Assembly (NCBI GenBank): GCA_963965975.1
Contig: OZ014412.1
Coordinates: forward strand, 11,670,849-11,734,848
Direction: 5' to 3'
Length of the DNA: 64,000 nucleotides
From: Xestospongia bergquistia
Lineage: Eukaryota; Porifera; Demospongiae; Haplosclerida; Petrosiidae
Positions 11,906-21,283 of this stretch are shown piece after piece (the stretch's first letter is position 1; every line of letters starts with the position of its first letter). The notes under the pieces were generated by a model that saw nothing but the letters and a program-made list of their open reading frames with translations, was not told where the DNA came from and did no database searches. The position numbers were made by a program, and so were the translations under genes.

Positions 11906-12127
11906 TGAAGTATCTAAGTCTGTTGAAGAGTGCTCGATGTCGTTTTAGACAGAGCGGGTTAGAACAGAATTAAAGGACAAAAGAACAGAGCTCTCGCTGT
12001 GTTGCTGTTACTCCGAGTTTCACGCGTTATGCGATCGTCAGCTGTCTGACGATCGCATAACGCGTGAAACTCGGAGTAACAACAACACAGCGAGAGCTCT
12101 GTTCTTTCTTCCTTTAATTCTGTTCTG

Positions 12128-12166
<39 letters not shown>

Positions 12167-14921
12167 TACATTGGCTCATTGTTTTTTGAATTAGTCTTAC
12201 TCCAAGATGCCTACTCACTAATGCAAAAAAGGTCATCTGGCACACTTAGAGCGCTTTATTGATGTTGCACGAAAGCAATAATTTGATTGGTCATCTGAAA
12301 CTCCTTCGAATTCTGACTGTAGCATCCGGTGCAAGAAAATGTTTGAAGTATGCCAGATGCCCTTCTTAGATGGATGTCTGGGGATAGACTATTTTTAAAT
12401 AAAACAATTGGATTTGACATTTTAAATTGATAGGTGTATTATGAAAAAATTCATATATAACGACCTATTTGCTGGTAAGCCACTTCTGAATTTATTGATA
12501 AATGTCTTACTAGGCATTAATTTTTAAAGTCAATATATCGTAGTCATGTACAACAATAATTATAACATTTAGTTCAGGTATGTATGATGGCATATATTAG
12601 AAAGGCAAAAATGTTATTTTTCTTCAATATAGAAACTGAGTTGTCTGAATGGTATATTATTCACTACAAATAAACAAAGAACAAATTTCTGTAAATTCTC
12701 TATGTACAGTTAGCTCCATATTATTTGTGCTTCATACATGAACTTTTCTTGATATGGCTGGCAGACTTCTATTAAAGGGATGGTATCATGAAAAATCACT
12801 AATTTTTTTTACTTAAAAATAATCATTAGGTGGTATATAGCTCAGAATATTTTTTCCAGATTTTTTCTGGCTACCATTAGCTAGAAAAAAATAGTTGTTT
12901 CCAGCTAGGATGTAAAAGCACTTCCTGTTGAGGTTGAAATCGGGCGGGGCCGTTATGTGATGTCATCAAAGGGAGAGAAGTAAAGCGTTGCAATGGAAGA
13001 AAGCGACAACTCGATCAGTTTTTCTGGCACCAATGATGCTGACAGCTATGCAGCTAGTGAAATAAGACTGTCTTGCTCCTTTTCCAGTTTTGAGGTAGAA
13101 AATCCAGATCCTATAGAGAGCAGTCATGAAGATACAGGCTCAGAAATCATAGAACCATACAGTTTTGAGCCGATTGCAAGTGGTGAATACTCTCCATCCC
13201 ACTCTCCAGTGGAATATGAAAGTTAATTCTCCAGGCTTGACAATACAGACTGTTAAGTCTTTCAAATAATACAAGTATAGTCCTATTTATAGTACTGTTC
13301 TGCCTTTTTGTAGGTGTCAATGTGGACAATGTGAAGTGATGGCAACAGGATGTGAATGTGTGTGTTGCTGTGAAATAGACATTGTAAAAGACAAAGATGA
13401 AAGAGAGTAGCAATGAGATACATTGTATCACAGACCATGAAGGGTTTCAATCTGTGTGCTTAAATGTATGGGTGCTACAGACTGCCTATTTTAGTTACAG
13501 GAGTCATTATGGGGACACTGAAGAAAAATCTGTTCATGAGTAAGTTTGCCCACACATAATATTATTATACATCACTTCACATTGCATTCTTATTTCATGC
13601 AGACGTTACCGCTATATGGCATACTGCCAGCTAACCAGTTGGTGCTGGGGATGGCTCGGGAAAAGAGTATAAGAGTAATTTTACCAAGTTGTGCAGTAAA
13701 GAAGATTAGGAACACTTTTCCATCTGATTTTAGTAACTACACAGGTTTCAAATATCCACATTTGTGAAGTTTGTTTGTTATGCATACAATAGTTATTATT
13801 ATGACAATCTAAATCTACTCTTATGACTTGAAATGGCAGTGTCCTTGTCTGGCCTTGTGTATTGACTACTTAATGGTGCTGGCTCCTCATCATATACACT
13901 TGCATCCCCTCTACTGCCATCTATACAGATACAGCTAACTGGGAATCCACCTCAAATGACTCTGGAGTGAAATGCTTTCCAGTTGGCTCACGTCCTTTGA
14001 CTTGTTTCTCCCACTGAGCTTTTAAAGCAGGGCTTTTTGGGAACTTGAACAAACTTACTGTATCACTTGGTACATTAGAACATCCAGCAGCCACACAGTA
14101 ATTCACCATTTTCACACCTTGCTGTGTAAAAGGTCTATACTTGTATAGATGCACATGCATTAGCAGAAATCTCTCCCTTTGATGACATCACATAACGGCC
14201 CCACCCAATTTCAACCTCAGCGGGAAACGTTTGTAGCTTATTGAAAAATAGCTGGAAACAACTATTTTTTTCTAGCTAATGGTAGCCAGAAAAAATCTGA
14301 AAAAAATATGCTGAGCTATATATCACCAAAAGATTCTTTTTAAATTTAAAAAAAAATAGTGATTTTTCATGATACCCTCCCTTTTAAATATTCAGCCAAA
14401 TATAAACATTTAGATTTACTTTGATTCAGTTGGTTAGACCCTCTTATGACAAGTGGAAGGACAATTTAAGAGGTATCAATTAGCAACTCTCTATTTAGTT
14501 GAAATCTCCTATGTCTTGGCTGCAGTATGTTGTGAAATCAAAAAATCTTGCCTGAAATCTTAAGATTTCACTGTTTGATAATTTTTGTATACTCTTTTGT
14601 GTCACAGTTTATGTATAACTTGTCATACAGAAATTGAAATGTCTGAAACCTCATGCATTTTCTGGGAATTGTGGACCTATTGGTCTAGAACAATGCAATC
14701 AGTTTGTTTAATGCAAACAATTAAAGCTGCCAGCCAGCCCCATTTCTAAGCCACCAGCTCGTTTTAAGATAAAATTTGCAATAGGGCTTTAATATAAAAA
14801 TATAATATCGTTACATTAACATCATTTAATTCACTTACGTTGGGACTAGTGAAAAAACGTGCCCATTCGCTTCGGCACATGACAGTAGTACCGTATCACC
14901 CTCGTAGATAGGACTAGACAT
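1..14921 (-). CDS. ITPR: Inositol 1,4,5-trisphosphate receptor, copy A (5' and middle part; runs off the left edge)
   Basis: Encodes the N-terminal and middle part of an IP3-gated calcium-release channel of the endoplasmic reticulum. The ATG is at 14921, followed by a first exon that reads like the start of the IP3R beta-trefoil (MSSPIYEGDTVLLSC). After a 4.7-kb first intron come many small exons: beta-trefoil and MIR pieces (about 10.1-7.3 kb), then helical RIH/ARM repeats (about 7.1 kb to 1). Recognisable IP3R-like stretches include LLHVASNLYLHLP, GSIVRLHNVKLDSYI, KKGNHIRLRHCL and the RIH segment around 6.5-6.6 kb. The remaining introns are mostly 45-100 bp with GT/AG ends. The channel domain is not in the window for this copy. 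The same exons recur in copy B (34-40 kb). RyR was considered, but the domain order and the pore region of copy B fit IP3R. Exact exon ends are not all resolved. Confidence 0.82.
2678..2730. repeat. (TA)n / (TAA)n microsatellite
   Basis: Simple AT dinucleotide run followed by TAA triplets, inside an IP3R copy A intron. Confidence 0.95.
5440..5880. repeat. Segment shared with 34960-35450 (IP3R A/B paralogous block)
   Basis: A diverged direct copy of 34960-35450. Shared landmarks are the string around 'gaaatagtctat' and 'tttcaatggacaat'. In copy B this segment abuts exons that correspond to about 0.65-0.85 kb of copy A. In copy A it lies next to exons of the RIH block, so the two genes are not simply collinear here. 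No clear exon was recognised inside it. Confidence 0.6.
7280..10075 (-). CDS. ITPR: IP3R copy A exon block: beta-trefoil and MIR domains
   Basis: About a dozen short exons. In coding order they read VALFQVLPEYAEN (9.77 kb), HYFHRKLVYGRKIK (9.6-9.55 kb), LLHVASNLYLHLPFISSDV (9.5-9.42 kb), ATLTQYDDACLFKILPS (9.34 kb), YPGDELILKSVQQKGNYHIL (9.2-9.13 kb), YEFTLAVTHSVFTI (8.7 kb), GSIVRLHNVKLDSYIASSN (8.21-8.11 kb), then MIR-like FNEKCCIKHILTEKYL (7.8 kb) and GNHIRLRHCLNEKYLAIEG (7.5 kb). The order follows the known layout of the IP3R suppressor domain and IP3-binding core. I did not verify the individual basic IP3-contact residues. Confidence 0.75.
8635..10840. repeat. Left arm of a large inverted duplication (partner 16700-18495)
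   Basis: This stretch of IP3R copy A, with its beta-trefoil exons and introns, reappears reverse-complemented at about 16700-18495. Both exons and introns are shared, with scattered substitutions and indels. The partner is therefore a genomic DNA duplication and not a retrocopy. The arms are separated by about 5.9 kb. Confidence 0.9.
11086..11233. mobile_element. Short foldback element (MITE-like)
   Basis: Two arms of roughly 55 bp, starting 'gttaggtatctgtctcagg' and ending with its imperfect reverse complement, surround a loop of about 40 bp. The arms share the core 'agtgatttagaccacc'. No coding capacity. It lies in intron 1 of IP3R copy A. A non-autonomous foldback transposon is the simplest reading; no target duplication was established. 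Confidence 0.7.
11870..12172. repeat. Paired (TA)n tracts flanking a GC-rich hairpin
   Basis: TA runs occupy 11870-11904 and about 12131-12172 on both sides of the hairpin at 11961-12126. The unit between the runs starts with 'actgaagtatctaagtctgt'. That same tag occurs next to the broken 5' end of IP3R copy B at about 39758-39781. Confidence 0.85.
11961..12126. mobile_element. Near-perfect GC-rich hairpin (foldback element)
   Basis: Two arms of about 80 bp, from 'agaacagaattaaagg' to its exact reverse complement 'cctttaattctgttct', face each other around the 4-base loop 12042-12045. The inner part of the arms (for example 'tcacgcgttatgcgatcgtc') is strikingly CpG- and GC-rich in this AT-rich window. 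It has no coding potential. It looks like a foldback MITE that inserted into a TA tract. Confidence 0.85.
12993..13767 (+). pseudogene. P2X7-type cysteine-rich (ballast-like) domain gene, decayed
   Basis: Exon 1 starts with ATG at 12993 and encodes an acidic, Ser-rich N-terminus ending ..SYSFEPIASG-like, then EYES. The downstream pieces match the cytosolic Zn-binding domain at the C-terminus of vertebrate P2X7, a domain also found as stand-alone proteins in many invertebrates: RLDNTD (about 13231-13250), CQCGQCEVMATGCECVCC (13313 on), CITDHEGFQSVCLNVWVLQT (13428 on) and, after an intron, RYRYMAYCQLTSWCWGWLGK then RVILPSCAVKKIRNTFP and TGFKYPHL with stop at 13767. There are at least three lesions: a frame change after EYES, a TAG or frame slip after KDERE, and a one-base slip between GWLGK and RVILPSC. 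The first donor also reads TTAAGT where GTAAGT is expected. The conserved W-C-x-C-x2-C and ECVCC motifs make the family call firm; function is doubtful in this copy. Confidence 0.72.
13921..14109 (-). pseudogene. THAP zinc-finger domain fragment
   Basis: Starting at the ATG at 14109 the frame reads MVNYCVAAGCSN, followed by LFKFPK and W, which is the N-terminal C-x4-C half of a THAP (C2CH) DNA-binding domain. It ends with HFTPESFEVDSQLA, the usual end of such domains. The intervening segment that should hold the third zinc ligand in C-x2-H is missing: the sequence jumps to GKHF, so the histidine is present but not the cysteine. This points to an internal deletion. The upstream 17 residues are in frame but are not part of the domain. 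It lies inside the TIR element, opposite to the P2X7-like gene. Confidence 0.7.
14839..14921 (-). CDS. ITPR: IP3R copy A, first coding exon
   Basis: The ATG at 14921-14919 opens a 28-residue segment ending ..HVFSLVPT, followed by a consensus GTAAGT donor (reverse complement at 14833-14838). It resembles the first strand of the IP3R suppressor (beta-trefoil) domain, which begins MS..LYIGDIVSLYAEG in animal receptors. The next exon (about 10.07-10.0 kb) reads SSDSYGHVTIQSKPLPYSNS, so intron 1 is about 4.76 kb, unlike the short introns elsewhere in the gene. That intron holds most of the transposons of this region. Confidence 0.7.
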
Positions 14922-16329: not shown

Positions 16330-19300
16330 CTGTAAAATAAAAAGAAATACATGACCAGAGAAGTCTACATATAAGAGTTCTCAGTAATAATAAGAGTAAC
16401 ATTATCATAGGACTACTGTGATAGTACTAATAGTGGAATCAGTTAATAATTACTTAAAAATAGAAAATTAGAATAAGCTGGATATGATACTGAAGCTGAA
16501 ACCTAAGTCTACCATTAATTGCATGTACCAATGTTAGCATTTTAGAGGTTACTATAATAGCTGAGGATAACAATCATCTTGTTTTGGAAGACACTGACTT
16601 CACAATAAAATACCAAATATAGCTATAGAGGTTGGAAAACTAGCTATAGTGTCTGTGAAAGACTATAGAATGCTAGAAATTATTGTGTATGGATAATAAT
16701 AAATTGATATGCATTCTTCAATGATGAATTGACAACAAACTAGAGACAGTTGTCTTGTAGTGATTGACAAAATAAACATCTAAATGTATAATGCATACAT
16801 TTCTTTGCCATACTATAGTGTATAAATGTATGTGTATGGATAATATGTATTCAAGCATATATTGATCTGTGACTTATTAATTGACAATTATTTACCAGGA
16901 TATTTTTGAGAGAAAGGTTTTTCATAGTTTGCTTCTAAAAACTTATTTCTAGAAATGAATTTTTGCAGATACTAAGGAAATTACATCAATATATATACTT
17001 CCTTAATTATAGCTCTATGATCAACACTTATAACATTATTTCAATATAATTAAGGGGAAAATTAACTTAGAGCTCTTTATGTCAAGACAGTTATCATCTC
17101 TTCACAAGGGACATTGTCATTAGAGGATACTAATGGTGTCCAAGATAGTCAGTCTTGCATGTCTAGTCTTTAACAGTTGGTAGGTTTTTCTAAAGAGAGC
17201 TAGTGACAGTCTAGCATCTTTCCTTTTGTTATTGTAGCCTGTACAATCTGTCCAATATTAAAACCTATTCATTCAGGTCATGACTGATACTAATATTTGC
17301 AAGTAAATTGGAAAAAAATCTGGTATTAAAACTTTGTGGTATATACATACTGATATCACAAAAACTTGAAAATTAACACCTCAAAATAATAAATAATATT
17401 CTGTACAATACTTTATAAATAAACTGTGAAATAATTTTTATAATATGTTGTCTTTTCTTCTTTTTTAATAGTTCTGATTCTTATGGATATGTTACTGTTC
17501 AGTCTAAGCCACTACCTTATTCTGACTCTGTTCACTGTTTTCACCGCAAACTAGTTTATGGTAGAAAGATCAAGGTGTGAAGGAATATACTATTGACTTA
17601 CTATTGACTTACTGACATCCAAGATATTTTTCTTCTTCATAGTTACTTCATGTTGCTTCCAATTTGTATCTCCATCTATCATTTATTTCATCAGATATTA
17701 GCAAGAACAACCAAGTACGTTCTTGACTTTGATGATGTGCTGTATGTGTTCTACTGTTACATGCACTTTTATCTTTATCATTATCATTGTTGCCTTTATT
17801 TTTCAGGCTACTCTTACGCAATATGATGATACCTGCTTATTTTAAATTTTGCCCTCTACTTCTGGAAAAAAAACAATGGAGAAATTGTAGCTAAGGATTT
17901 ATTTGCTTTTACTCATATAATACATTACGATTTTAGATTTATTCTGGTGATGAGCTTATTCTGAAGTCAGTGCAACAAAAGGGAAATTACCATATTATGT
18001 GTTCATAACACTTTAACTGAAAAGTAATGTCACATAATTAAGTATGTTACAAACTACTGAAATCCATCTTGATAACATGTACATATACTCTTATTGACAT
18101 ACCACTGCCATATTTAATTTATTTCTTTACACCTCCAATTTCAGTAACTAAAATTAGAAATGTTGAACTTATATATAAATTGTATAACATTGGTATAATG
18201 TGTATTAATATTGTATAATCACATTGCATATTAGGAGACTAGTATTATAAAGGAAAATATCATTCTTAGTTGATATGAAGATGATGATAGTTTTACATTT
18301 ATTTGGCAATATGTTCAAGTGTGTATTTGGGCTGGAAAGAAACGAATGACAAAAATAGTTTAAATTAATTCGTAACTTAATTGTTCAATTCTTATGGCTA
18401 TCTTGTAATATTTCTTTTAGATATGAGTTTACATTGGCAGTGACTAATTCTGTGTTTACTATTCAACCACATACAAGTACTCAAACTCAAATACCAACTG
18501 ATATACATTGGTTCATTGTTTTTTTTGAATTAGTATCGCTCCAAGACACCTACTCACTAACGGAAAACAGTCATCCTGCACACTGAGGGATTACTATGAA
18601 AGCCCCAGATGGACATTCCAATTCCATTTTCTTATTTCTCCCGCAAACCTTGGCGTATTAAAAAATCCCAATTAACGACCACTCATTTGAGTTCCAATTT
18701 CTTATTTCTAATTCCATTTTTGGCATGTGCGCCATTTCTAGGCCTTTTTTGATACTTAATAAAATACGGAGCATGAGTACCATGAGCCATCTCTTACAAT
18801 TGAGCACTAGCGAGATGTTTCCAATTAGGTTGGTTCCCTGACTTTGATTGTATGTTGTAGTTCTATTATTTAGGGAAGCTGAGGATGGACATTTAAACTC
18901 CGTATAACCTTGTTATATTGAATTGGAAATAAGAAGGTCTGTCTGAGGCTTCCGTACATTACATGAAGTATGAAAGCGGTTCTAAGTAACCATAAAGTAA
19001 AAGCAAAAATAAAGTGTATCAGCTGCCTCAATAATCAAAGCACTTCTTGAAACAGACACTTGTAGTATTGGAAATTTCGAATAGCCCTCTATCTTAGTTT
19101 TGAGCCAATGCATTCCAGTGATTCCAGTGTGTGAAATATATGATGTCGTATGAAAGCAATAATTTGATTGGTCACCTGAAATTCTTTCAGGCTGAAGCAT
19201 CCGGTGACAAGAAAATGCTTGAAATATGCCAGATGCCTTCTTAGATGGGTGTCTAGGGATATACTATTTTTAAATAAAACAATTGGGTTTGACATTTTAA

Positions 19301-21283
19301 ATAAATAGGTGTATTATGAATAAATCCATAGATAACTTACCAACCTATTTGCTGGTAAGCCACTTATGAAGTTATTGATAAATATCTTACCACCTATAAT
19401 AGTTAATCAAAATTCATAAGTGATTTGGTAAATTTAGCACCTCATTACTTCAAAGCCTAGCTTCATTCACACTTTAATGACTCCAGAATTTTAGGAACAG
19501 CTAGAAAGGTAAGTTTATGAAAAGCTTGGCACTTACTGCCTGGTACACAACATTATGTTGAAACATACATGTAGTGGGATTAATTTATTATTGACTACAA
19601 ATAAACAAAGAGGATATTTCTGTAAATTCTCTATGTACAGTTAGCTCCTTGTTTGTGCTTCATACATGAACTTTCTTGATGTGGTTGCCAGATCTGTTTT
19701 AAATATTAATGGCCCAGCCAAATATAAACATTTAGATTTATTTTAATTCAGTTGGTTAGACCCTCTTATGACAAGTGAAAGGACAAGAGGTATCAGTTGT
19801 CAACTCTCTATTTAGTTGAAATCTCTTTATGTCTTGAGTGCAGTATGTTGTGGTATCACAAAATCTTGCCTGATATCTTTAGATTTCACTGTTTGATAGT
19901 TTTTGGTATGCTCTTTTACTCTTACTTTGTGTATATACTTGTTAAGACATAATATTTAGAAATTGAAATTTCCTGCATTTTGTAGGAACTGCCCTATTGG
20001 GTCTAGTACAATGCAATCAGTTTGTTAATGCAAACAATTAAAGCTGCTAGCCAGCCTGGAATAAGCTGGATATGATACCAAAGCTGAAACTTAAACCTTC
20101 CATTAATTCCTAAAGATAACAATCATCCTGTAATTGTATTAGAAGACACTGACTTCACAATAAAACACTGACTATAGCTATAAAGATTGGAAAACTAGCC
20201 AGTGTCTGTGAAAGACTATAGAATTTTAGAAATCAAGCTACTGAGATGATTAAAGCCTTCATATCATGATAAGCCACACTAGTACTCATATTTTATAATA
20301 GTACTCACACTAACAGGTTAATAAAATTAATTTTATTGGTTGCCATATGCATTGGCAGTTAAAGGACATGGTTAAATTTATTCATTGCTTTCAATTGTTC
20401 CATACAACTACAGAGTAAATACATTTTGAATAGAGTGCTAGTTCTATATAGAGTAAAGCACATAGACTTACTATTTGAAAATATAGAATCTAACAGCTTA
20501 AGGGATCTAAATCACCTTATGTTATAACTACAGTATGTAATTTCATTATGATACTGCTTTAAAAGCTAAGACTCTGAGGCAAAAGACTAGAAAAATATAA
20601 AAAGTTGAAAGAAACTGTAGCTATAGTGCTGCAACACAGAAAAACACATTGAGAGACTGGTACACACAATACCAGGTTTTGCTTTGACATAAAGGTCCTA
20701 TGGAAATACAGTAAATCAGGCAACTTAGAATTTTAAAATAATAATGCTAAAAAAAACTACATGTTATTTTAAGGAGAAGTAATGGAAGGTTAGTATCTCA
20801 TGATAAGTTATATCAGAAATATCATGGTTATATAAACGTAATAACTTGGCATTTTGTAAAAGATATCACCTTTGAGCCATTAACACTCAGGTGTTGGGTA
20901 AAACTTTAACAAATTTATTATAGTCATAGTAAAGAAAACTGAAAATATCCAAACTGGTAGGGCATCTGTTAACCCTTGTCTACATACAGCCTTGGTTTAC
21001 CTTACATGTTGTACCAAGAAAATATGAAATTCACTTTTGAAATGGTACCAAATAGGTTAAAAATTTGGGCAATTTCTGTTTAAAATAAATGCAATGGTTG
21101 TGGGTGTGGCAGCAAATGTTTGGCTACTCAATTCACTAAACTTACTCACAAACAGTATTATAAACAAATAAAATGCTTACTTTTTCAAACTGACAGACAA
21201 TAGTATTGTCTGTTCTCCATATATCCTCTTCCTCATCACTTTCAGCATCATCATTAGAATAAAAGGATCTTCATCACTACCCT
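16225..21283 (-). CDS. GTF2A1: TFIIA large subunit (alpha/beta), C-terminal two exons only
   Basis: TFIIA stabilises TBP on promoter DNA; its large-subunit C-terminus forms the beta-barrel with the small subunit. The exon at 21181-21283 reads an acidic stretch NDDAESDEEEDIW then TDNTIVCQFEK before a GTAAGC donor. The exon at 16225-16329 reads VYRVRAKWKFALKDGIMHLK, GYDYIFTKTNGEAD, stop. This matches the end of animal TFIIA-alpha/beta (..VVVCQYDKIHR..NKWKFHLKDGIMNLNGRDYIF..). The exons join in frame across a 4.85-kb intron, far longer than the neighbours. The N-terminal helical domain and linker were not found upstream, and in-frame stops lie just before the acidic stretch unless the exon starts inside it, so this is probably a truncated or relic copy. 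Confidence 0.72.
16472..16685. repeat. Direct repeat bordering the inserted 16.7-20.05 kb block (partner 20048-20240)
   Basis: Starts 'aataagctggatatgatact' and recurs at 20048-20240 in the same orientation. The two copies bracket the block that carries the inverted IP3R exons and the 18507-20047 repeat, as if that block had been inserted with duplication of about 200 bp of the TFIIA intron. Confidence 0.8.
16700..18495 (+). pseudogene. Inverted duplicate of IP3R copy A beta-trefoil exons
   Basis: Reverse-complement copy of 8635-10840. On the plus strand, exon sequences corresponding to SSDSYG, LLHVASNLYLHL and ATLTQYDD appear near 17470, 17645 and 17810. They are separated by matching introns, but with point changes and indels: part of the exon/intron near 17540 is rearranged and the HYFHRKL exon is fused to the preceding one. 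There is no start exon and no continuation of the receptor, and it sits within the intron of the TFIIA fragment on the other strand. It is a gene fragment. Confidence 0.85.
18507..20047. repeat. Direct repeat copy 2 (partner 12169-14740), with empty transposon site
   Basis: Same orientation as 12169-14740. The site 'ctgttttaaatatt' near 19694-19707 has no insert and a single TTA, which documents the transposon insertion in copy 1. Copy 2 also contains about 250-400 bp of extra sequence (18590-18980, 19390-19570) not present in copy 1. No gene was recognised. Confidence 0.8.
20048..20240. repeat. Direct repeat, right border (partner 16472-16685)
   Basis: See the left partner. Shared landmarks are 'ggatatgatac' and 'gaagacactgacttcacaat'. 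Confidence 0.8.
20241..21180. other. TFIIA-fragment intron sequence, nothing recognised
   Basis: AT-rich non-coding sequence. No exon or element seen. Confidence 0.45.

Follow-up and report, generated by a model that had tools for sequence, protein, structure and literature searches.

The transposon copy and its insertion site

We describe here a transposon copy in the sponge Xestospongia bergquistia, contained in a 64,000-nt window of contig OZ014412.1 (assembly GCA_963965975.1), and consider the origin of its two decayed genes, one encoding a P2X7-type cysteine-rich domain and the other, on the opposite strand, a THAP domain. The window is the whole stretch of DNA that was analyzed, and positions given without a contig name refer to it. 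The copy spans 12776-14382 and is bounded by inverted ends of ~204 and ~214 bp, which are 87% identical in a whole-end alignment. End alignments and comparison of copies place the left terminal inverted repeat at 12776-12978 (+ strand) and the right at 14170-14382 (- strand), and the arms pair as 12774-12811/14347-14384, 12803-12907/14249-14353, and 12913-12978/14170-14235 with 88-95% complementarity. The element starts with AGGGATGGTATCATGA and closes with the reverse complement of AGGGAGGGTATCATGA. One TTAA directly abuts the left end (12772-12775), and a second, also supported by the empty-site comparison and the locus scan, lies at 14384-14387, separated from the right end by one extra T at 14383 and followed by ATATT. 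A preliminary description of this DNA had recognized the terminal inverted repeats, and its call of a transposon is borne out by these ends and by ten genome copies. The TTA duplications that it reported are to be replaced by TTAA, which is what the sister copies show.

The preliminary description also pointed to an empty paralogous site near 19699, which is indeed present. A copy of the flanking DNA with no element between its halves matches at 19141-19390, 19586-19692, and 19715-20056 (84.5-89% identity), leaving the unoccupied site at 19693-19714 (+ strand). There is a single TTAAATATT at the empty site versus the two flanking TTAAs around the element; a second TTAA occurs a few bases further on, and there are small differences at the site. 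The insertion reading is sound. The duplicated segment that supplies the empty site is ~0.9 kb long and relates 12260-12774 plus 14384-14756 to 19141-20056.

A search of the genome (146.5 Mb, 21 contigs) revealed a family of 10 copies, including that in the window, the other nine being 1.6-2.0 kb in length. TTAA is exact at both ends in six copies, at both ends with one extra T in the window copy, and exact at one end in three. The element is therefore not a chance pattern, as there are ten genome copies and seven have TTAA at both ends when the extra T in the window is counted. A partial copy of the family is located at C1:15793058 (loci elsewhere in the genome are given as contig and position).

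Two decayed genes on opposite strands

The + strand gene, which we identify as KolX, has three exons, of which exons 2 and 3 form the P2X7 C-terminal domain. Exon 1 (12993-13252) encodes an acidic N-terminus; its limits were inferred from the GT-AG borders kept in sister copies. Exon 2 (13314-13539) corresponds by tblastn to KolX and encodes the cysteine-rich first half of a P2X7 ballast-type domain, while exon 3 (13603-13767) encodes the second half, which closes with TGFKYPHL and a stop. The domain assignment comes from sister copies, and in particular from the one at C1:18981651-18982010, where exons 2 and 3 read through in a single frame owing to a deletion; its KolX matches Pfam P2RX7_C (E 2e-11) and the solved P2X7 chains (E 4e-6 to 1e-5). 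Exon 2 alone gave no Pfam match in the window (46 amino acids), in the C5 copy (89 amino acids), or at the C10:3077 locus (107 amino acids), and the window gene is assigned as KolX because its DNA is 92-96% identical to that of the family copies. Of its cysteines, those of the CQCGQC start and of LPSC were compared and line up with P2X7. By this route the P2X7-type assignment of the preliminary description is retained. The P2X channel part was not seen here, and the gene sits in a transposon.

On the - strand, reading inward from the right end, comes a THAP domain (13891-14109), behind which the window copy has no more than a short tail, SSQYTRPDKDTAISSHKSRF (13811-13870). The THAP fragment matches the Pfam profile above its curated cut-off (E 6e-7; 13960-14097 in the genome scan), in agreement with the earlier identification, and the copy on C7 matches at E 1e-14; the window fragment has lost a stretch that holds one cysteine in the C7 copy. 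The tail is similar to SSYDHPDKSEAISQHKSRF, with which a transposase open reading frame (ORF) ending at C10:3077271 closes. Both genes are decayed, as had been described: relative to sister copies KolX is interrupted by a stop in exon 1 (13224-13226), both exon 2 and exon 3 are frameshifted, and the splice donor after exon 1 is altered, in addition to the stretch lost from the THAP domain.

Complementary deletions within one family

Within the family of 10 copies the deletion type of the window is shared with one other copy, C7:605366-606956. The remaining eight lack THAP and retain the transposase from the SSLEAYHSV region to the same tail. The remains of the two deletion types are complementary, and therefore opposite ends of one transposase gene have been retained. 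Only the last-E region of the catalytic core is kept, in 8 of the 10 copies, and the core is absent from the window copy. Judged from these likenesses, the THAP fragment represents the N-terminal part of a Kolobok transposase, fused by an internal deletion to the last residues of the same protein. The preliminary description had viewed the element as carrying cargo without a transposase core. The core is indeed missing from the window copy, but the cargo is to be reinterpreted, with THAP as the N-terminus of the transposase itself and the P2X7-like gene as the accessory gene KolX. The question was also raised there whether the two genes recur together among copies with the same ends, which is the case for the window and C7:605366 but not for the eight copies that lost THAP while keeping KolX and the C-terminal part of the transposase.

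Fuller relatives in the same genome

Three kinds of query led to fuller loci: the C-terminal piece, Pfam THAP, and the transposase of a relative. Sequence matching the middle of the transposase is also present at C1:16757224, C1:16767081, C1:16774266, and C5:4117886. The locus at about C10:3074402-3077727 has the order THAP, DDE region, C-terminus, and convergent KolX, the latter with a stop, and transposon ends were not recognized there. At C1:639914-643078, THAP, part of the DDE region, and convergent KolX lie inside TTAA-flanked ends, and at C1:21456039-21458922 the TTAA-flanked ends enclose THAP, DDE, and the C-terminus without KolX. The ends of this last element, AGGGTAACAGAAATG, are common to C7:6895910-6897861 and C2:2132026-2133923, which contain THAP, the C-terminus, and KolX and have no DDE. 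The exon at C1:21458 matches Pfam THAP and is followed by the DDE exons on the same strand. Candidate core motifs of the C1:21456 element, with roles assigned by eye, are GDGRADSPG, TDRR, YDIWH (DxxH after the second D), and SSLEGFHSV, and the exon with the second D has a weak match to the MULE transposase (E 9e-5, below the curated cut-off). In total, five end families carry the convergent THAP/KolX pair, namely that of the window, with terminal bases AGGG...CCCT, and four in which TTAA is followed by AGGGTAAC and which have termini of the form AGGGTAAC...GTTACCCT. The Kolobok element at C1:21456039 is itself adjoined by ORFs that by eye resemble a BED-finger hAT-type protein (C1:21455538-21455984, L068).

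These loci bear directly on the possibility that a transposon captured two unrelated host genes, one P2X7-type and one THAP, by chance. The window copy taken alone, with no catalytic core, would fit such a capture. Against it, five end families share this pair and its convergent layout, THAP precedes the DDE exons on the same strand at C1:21456 and C10:3074, some fuller copies linking THAP, DDE, and KolX were found, and KolX is the accessory protein of Kol0 elements according to PMC9587614. In view of this recurrence, chance capture was rejected, and we consider it extremely improbable. Both genes are instead best regarded as belonging to the element itself, KolX as its accessory gene and the THAP fragment as the N-terminus of its transposase. 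The preliminary description had also considered that the P2X7-like gene might occur at many loci without these ends. It is carried by four families with other ends, which have the same convergent pair.

Probable assignment to the Kol0 lineage of Kolobok

The element has several properties of the Kolobok superfamily, in which the transposases usually contain THAP, the target is TTAA, and the termini are RR (PMC6004289, which also names an H2CH putative zinc finger in the Kolobok transposase). There is a 4-bp TTAA target site duplication, the termini are 5'-RR and YY-3', and THAP is part of the transposase as seen in the window fragment, the C7 copy, and the C1:21458 exon. The second gene, KolX with its P2X7 ballast-type domain, is recognized through the sister-copy matches and is a feature of Kol0. 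As reported in 2022 (PMC9587614), Kolobok families of the Kol0 lineage code for KolX besides a transposase, KolX resembles P2X7 residues 476-595 and takes the ballast fold, and the lineage is present in vertebrates, annelids, cnidarians, and sponges; it was concluded there that P2X7 arose via fusion with KolX. In the same work P2X7-like piggyBac proteins are described, and together with the TTAA duplication this could be taken to place the present element in piggyBac rather than Kolobok. However, its ends are AG...CT (5'-RR), and its transposase starts with THAP and shows the SSLEAYHSV and DxxH motifs; moreover, the piggyBac proteins of PMC9587614 are without most of the seven cysteines, whereas in the present domain the cysteines of CQCGQC and LPSC line up with P2X7. 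Membership of piggyBac is hence highly unlikely, and it was rejected on the lack of any Pfam piggyBac match in three transposase exon stretches of the C1:21456 relative (the window family having no core).

We conclude that the element almost certainly derives by deletion from a two-gene Kolobok DNA transposon of the Kol0 lineage and is now decayed and non-autonomous, as far as can be judged from sequence comparison. In the parent, the KolX gene would have run from one of the long inverted ends and the gene for a THAP-DDE transposase from the opposite one, with the genes arranged tail to tail. An internal deletion, perhaps arising during gap repair, would then have removed the central, catalytic part of the transposase, fusing the THAP N-terminus to the C-terminal tail, and the deleted copies may have been moved in trans by the transposase of a fuller copy. 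Cut-and-paste insertion into TTAA would have been followed by decay.

Compared with Kol0 elements of the Kolobok-1_XT type (PMC9587614), which have the same TTAA, 5'-RR/YY-3' ends, transposase, and KolX with a ballast-type domain, the window copy differs in being internally deleted and decayed, with the transposase present as end fragments only. The genes converge here, and the words opposite and convergent are absent from the main text of PMC9587614. The Xenopus XKol/T2-MITE Kolobok elements (PMC6004289) are similar in their TTAA, THAP-bearing transposase, and AG ends, and one of their ends, AGGGGAACTATCATGA of subfamily A5, resembles AGGGAGGGTATCATGA of the present element; they are from another host, and P2X is absent from the main text of that paper (KolX was not searched for). 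The zinc-cysteine domain of KolX, represented by the Pfam P2RX7_C match in the sister copy, is the same as that of the P2X7 ballast, NANOR, and ZCD proteins described across animals (PMC7016195), where a protein from a mite is noted whose N-terminal domain is spelt TAHP. The difference is that here the domain is in a transposon gene and the P2X channel part was not seen; the string 'transpos' is absent from the main text of PMC7016195. A literature search for papers with two or more of KolX, Kolobok, and P2X7 yielded only PMC9587614 and a review (PMC9319628).

The association between the P2X7-type domain and transposon ends is therefore real and has already been explained, so that the element is an example of something described and not a discovery. 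The suggestion in the preliminary description that such elements spread the domain is consistent with finding the same gene inside TTAA-flanked inverted ends in five families, with DDE-bearing relatives, but its novelty is lost to the 2022 publication (PMC9587614). Five Kolobok end families with the domain between their ends provide one-genome support for the published transposon origin of the P2X7 tail. To this are added a clear layout, in which the THAP-DDE transposase and KolX converge, and a set of deleted copies from which, taken together, the two ends of a single transposase can be read.

Co-occurrence of THAP and KolX across the genome

Of the 16 Pfam P2RX7_C matches in the genome, eight have THAP within 3 kb, all convergent, where 0.06 would be expected given 89 THAP matches. 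The KolX protein as query gave 70 matches in 56 loci, and 21 of these loci have Pfam THAP within 3 kb, again all convergent, with 0.2 expected. Both lists are lower bounds; the KolX loci C1:23300, C4:6127, C7:1904, and C7:1908 fall outside that from the KolX query. Thirty-eight loci were scanned in detail, picked for matching the element, KolX, THAP, or transposase and hence not a random sample. KolX is present in 36, THAP in 26, both in 24, and part of the DDE core in three. TTAA-flanked ends were found on both sides in 20 (counting the window with its extra T) and on one side in 12, for some of which the examined stretch stops short of the other end; one locus has ends with a mutated TTAA, and in five the ends were not recognized. 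TTAA exactly abuts both ends in 19 scanned loci besides the window.

Several observations weigh against the assignment of the element to a two-gene Kolobok. None of the 10 window-family copies yielded a DDE core, so that the N- and C-terminal pieces, together with other families, are what connect this family to a transposase. The full copy with DDE that might have been anticipated is accordingly represented by relatives of other families, while the window's own family has none; no complete copy of that family was found in genome searches in which only the best candidates were scored. The first-D exon of the DDE region at C1:21457 is not recognized by Pfam. In addition, 35 of the 56 KolX loci have no Pfam THAP within 3 kb (these include eight window-family copies and nine foldback-like repeat loci with KolX pieces on both strands), and four of the 38 scanned loci have KolX with neither THAP nor recognized ends, three of them beside retrotransposon-like ORFs.

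At two loci, C4:5018013-5018183 (L028) and C13:2995023-2995193 (L033), a KolX exon adjoins an ORF judged by eye to be Copia-like. Over 2.25 kb these loci share 97% identity, and KolX and its neighboring sequence have therefore been copied together. KolX exons at C4:5503595-5504022 (L032), with no recognized ends, adjoin a long ORF that by eye is gag-like with zinc knuckles. The foldback-like repeat is separate and carries KolX exon fragments as inverted pairs ~600 bp apart at nine loci. In three examples, C7:4997587-4998274 (L082), C1:2754934-2755648 (L083), and C6:5444855-5445548 (L084), arms of 400-450 bp (94-99% alike) enclose the KolX pieces or have them at their inner edge, and these arms reach the end of the examined stretch; over ~1.5 kb the three examples are mutually 93-96% alike.

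Selection on the deleted copies

It is conceivable that the deletion derivatives are maintained because their two products, a shortened THAP protein and KolX, act on the transposon from which they derive, in the manner of KP repressors. KP repressors come from deleted P elements, and the resemblance lies in an internal deletion that leaves a THAP N-terminus; they belong to another superfamily, and the truncated protein here shows no clear evidence of being under selection. Recurrence of THAP plus KolX without DDE over five end families is in keeping with such a role, as is the THAP reading frame of the C4:6127 family (the AGGGTAACTGAAATG family), which is open across 128-150 amino acids in 8 of 10 copies. 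In the THAP exon of the ten copies of this family, 24 of 68 changes are synonymous in a count over all cells versus 24% expected (p 0.046), a count in which shared changes enter repeatedly and which leans to constraint. When singletons are counted once each, there are 20 non-synonymous and 10 synonymous changes, with the same 24% expected (p 0.28), and the KolX exons of the window family have 43 non-synonymous and 12 synonymous distinct changes, with 22-23% synonymous expected (p 1.0). These codon counts, with small numbers, give no clear sign of selection on the proteins of the deleted copies after their amplification. Furthermore, THAP has been lost from 8 of the 10 window-family copies, and the ends are kept under internal deletion anyway. 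Maintenance as KP-like repressors is accordingly very unlikely. At least five Kolobok end families have given rise to short core-less derivatives with THAP and/or KolX, and there is an outside chance that these may be self-regulating satellites, with a THAP-only protein and KolX acting on the ends of the parent and with a role of KolX in transposition explaining its retention.

Upstream of the element, and adjoining AT-repeat tracts, the window also contains a near-perfect palindrome (11961-12126) with 81-nt arms that are 96% complementary and 4 nt apart.

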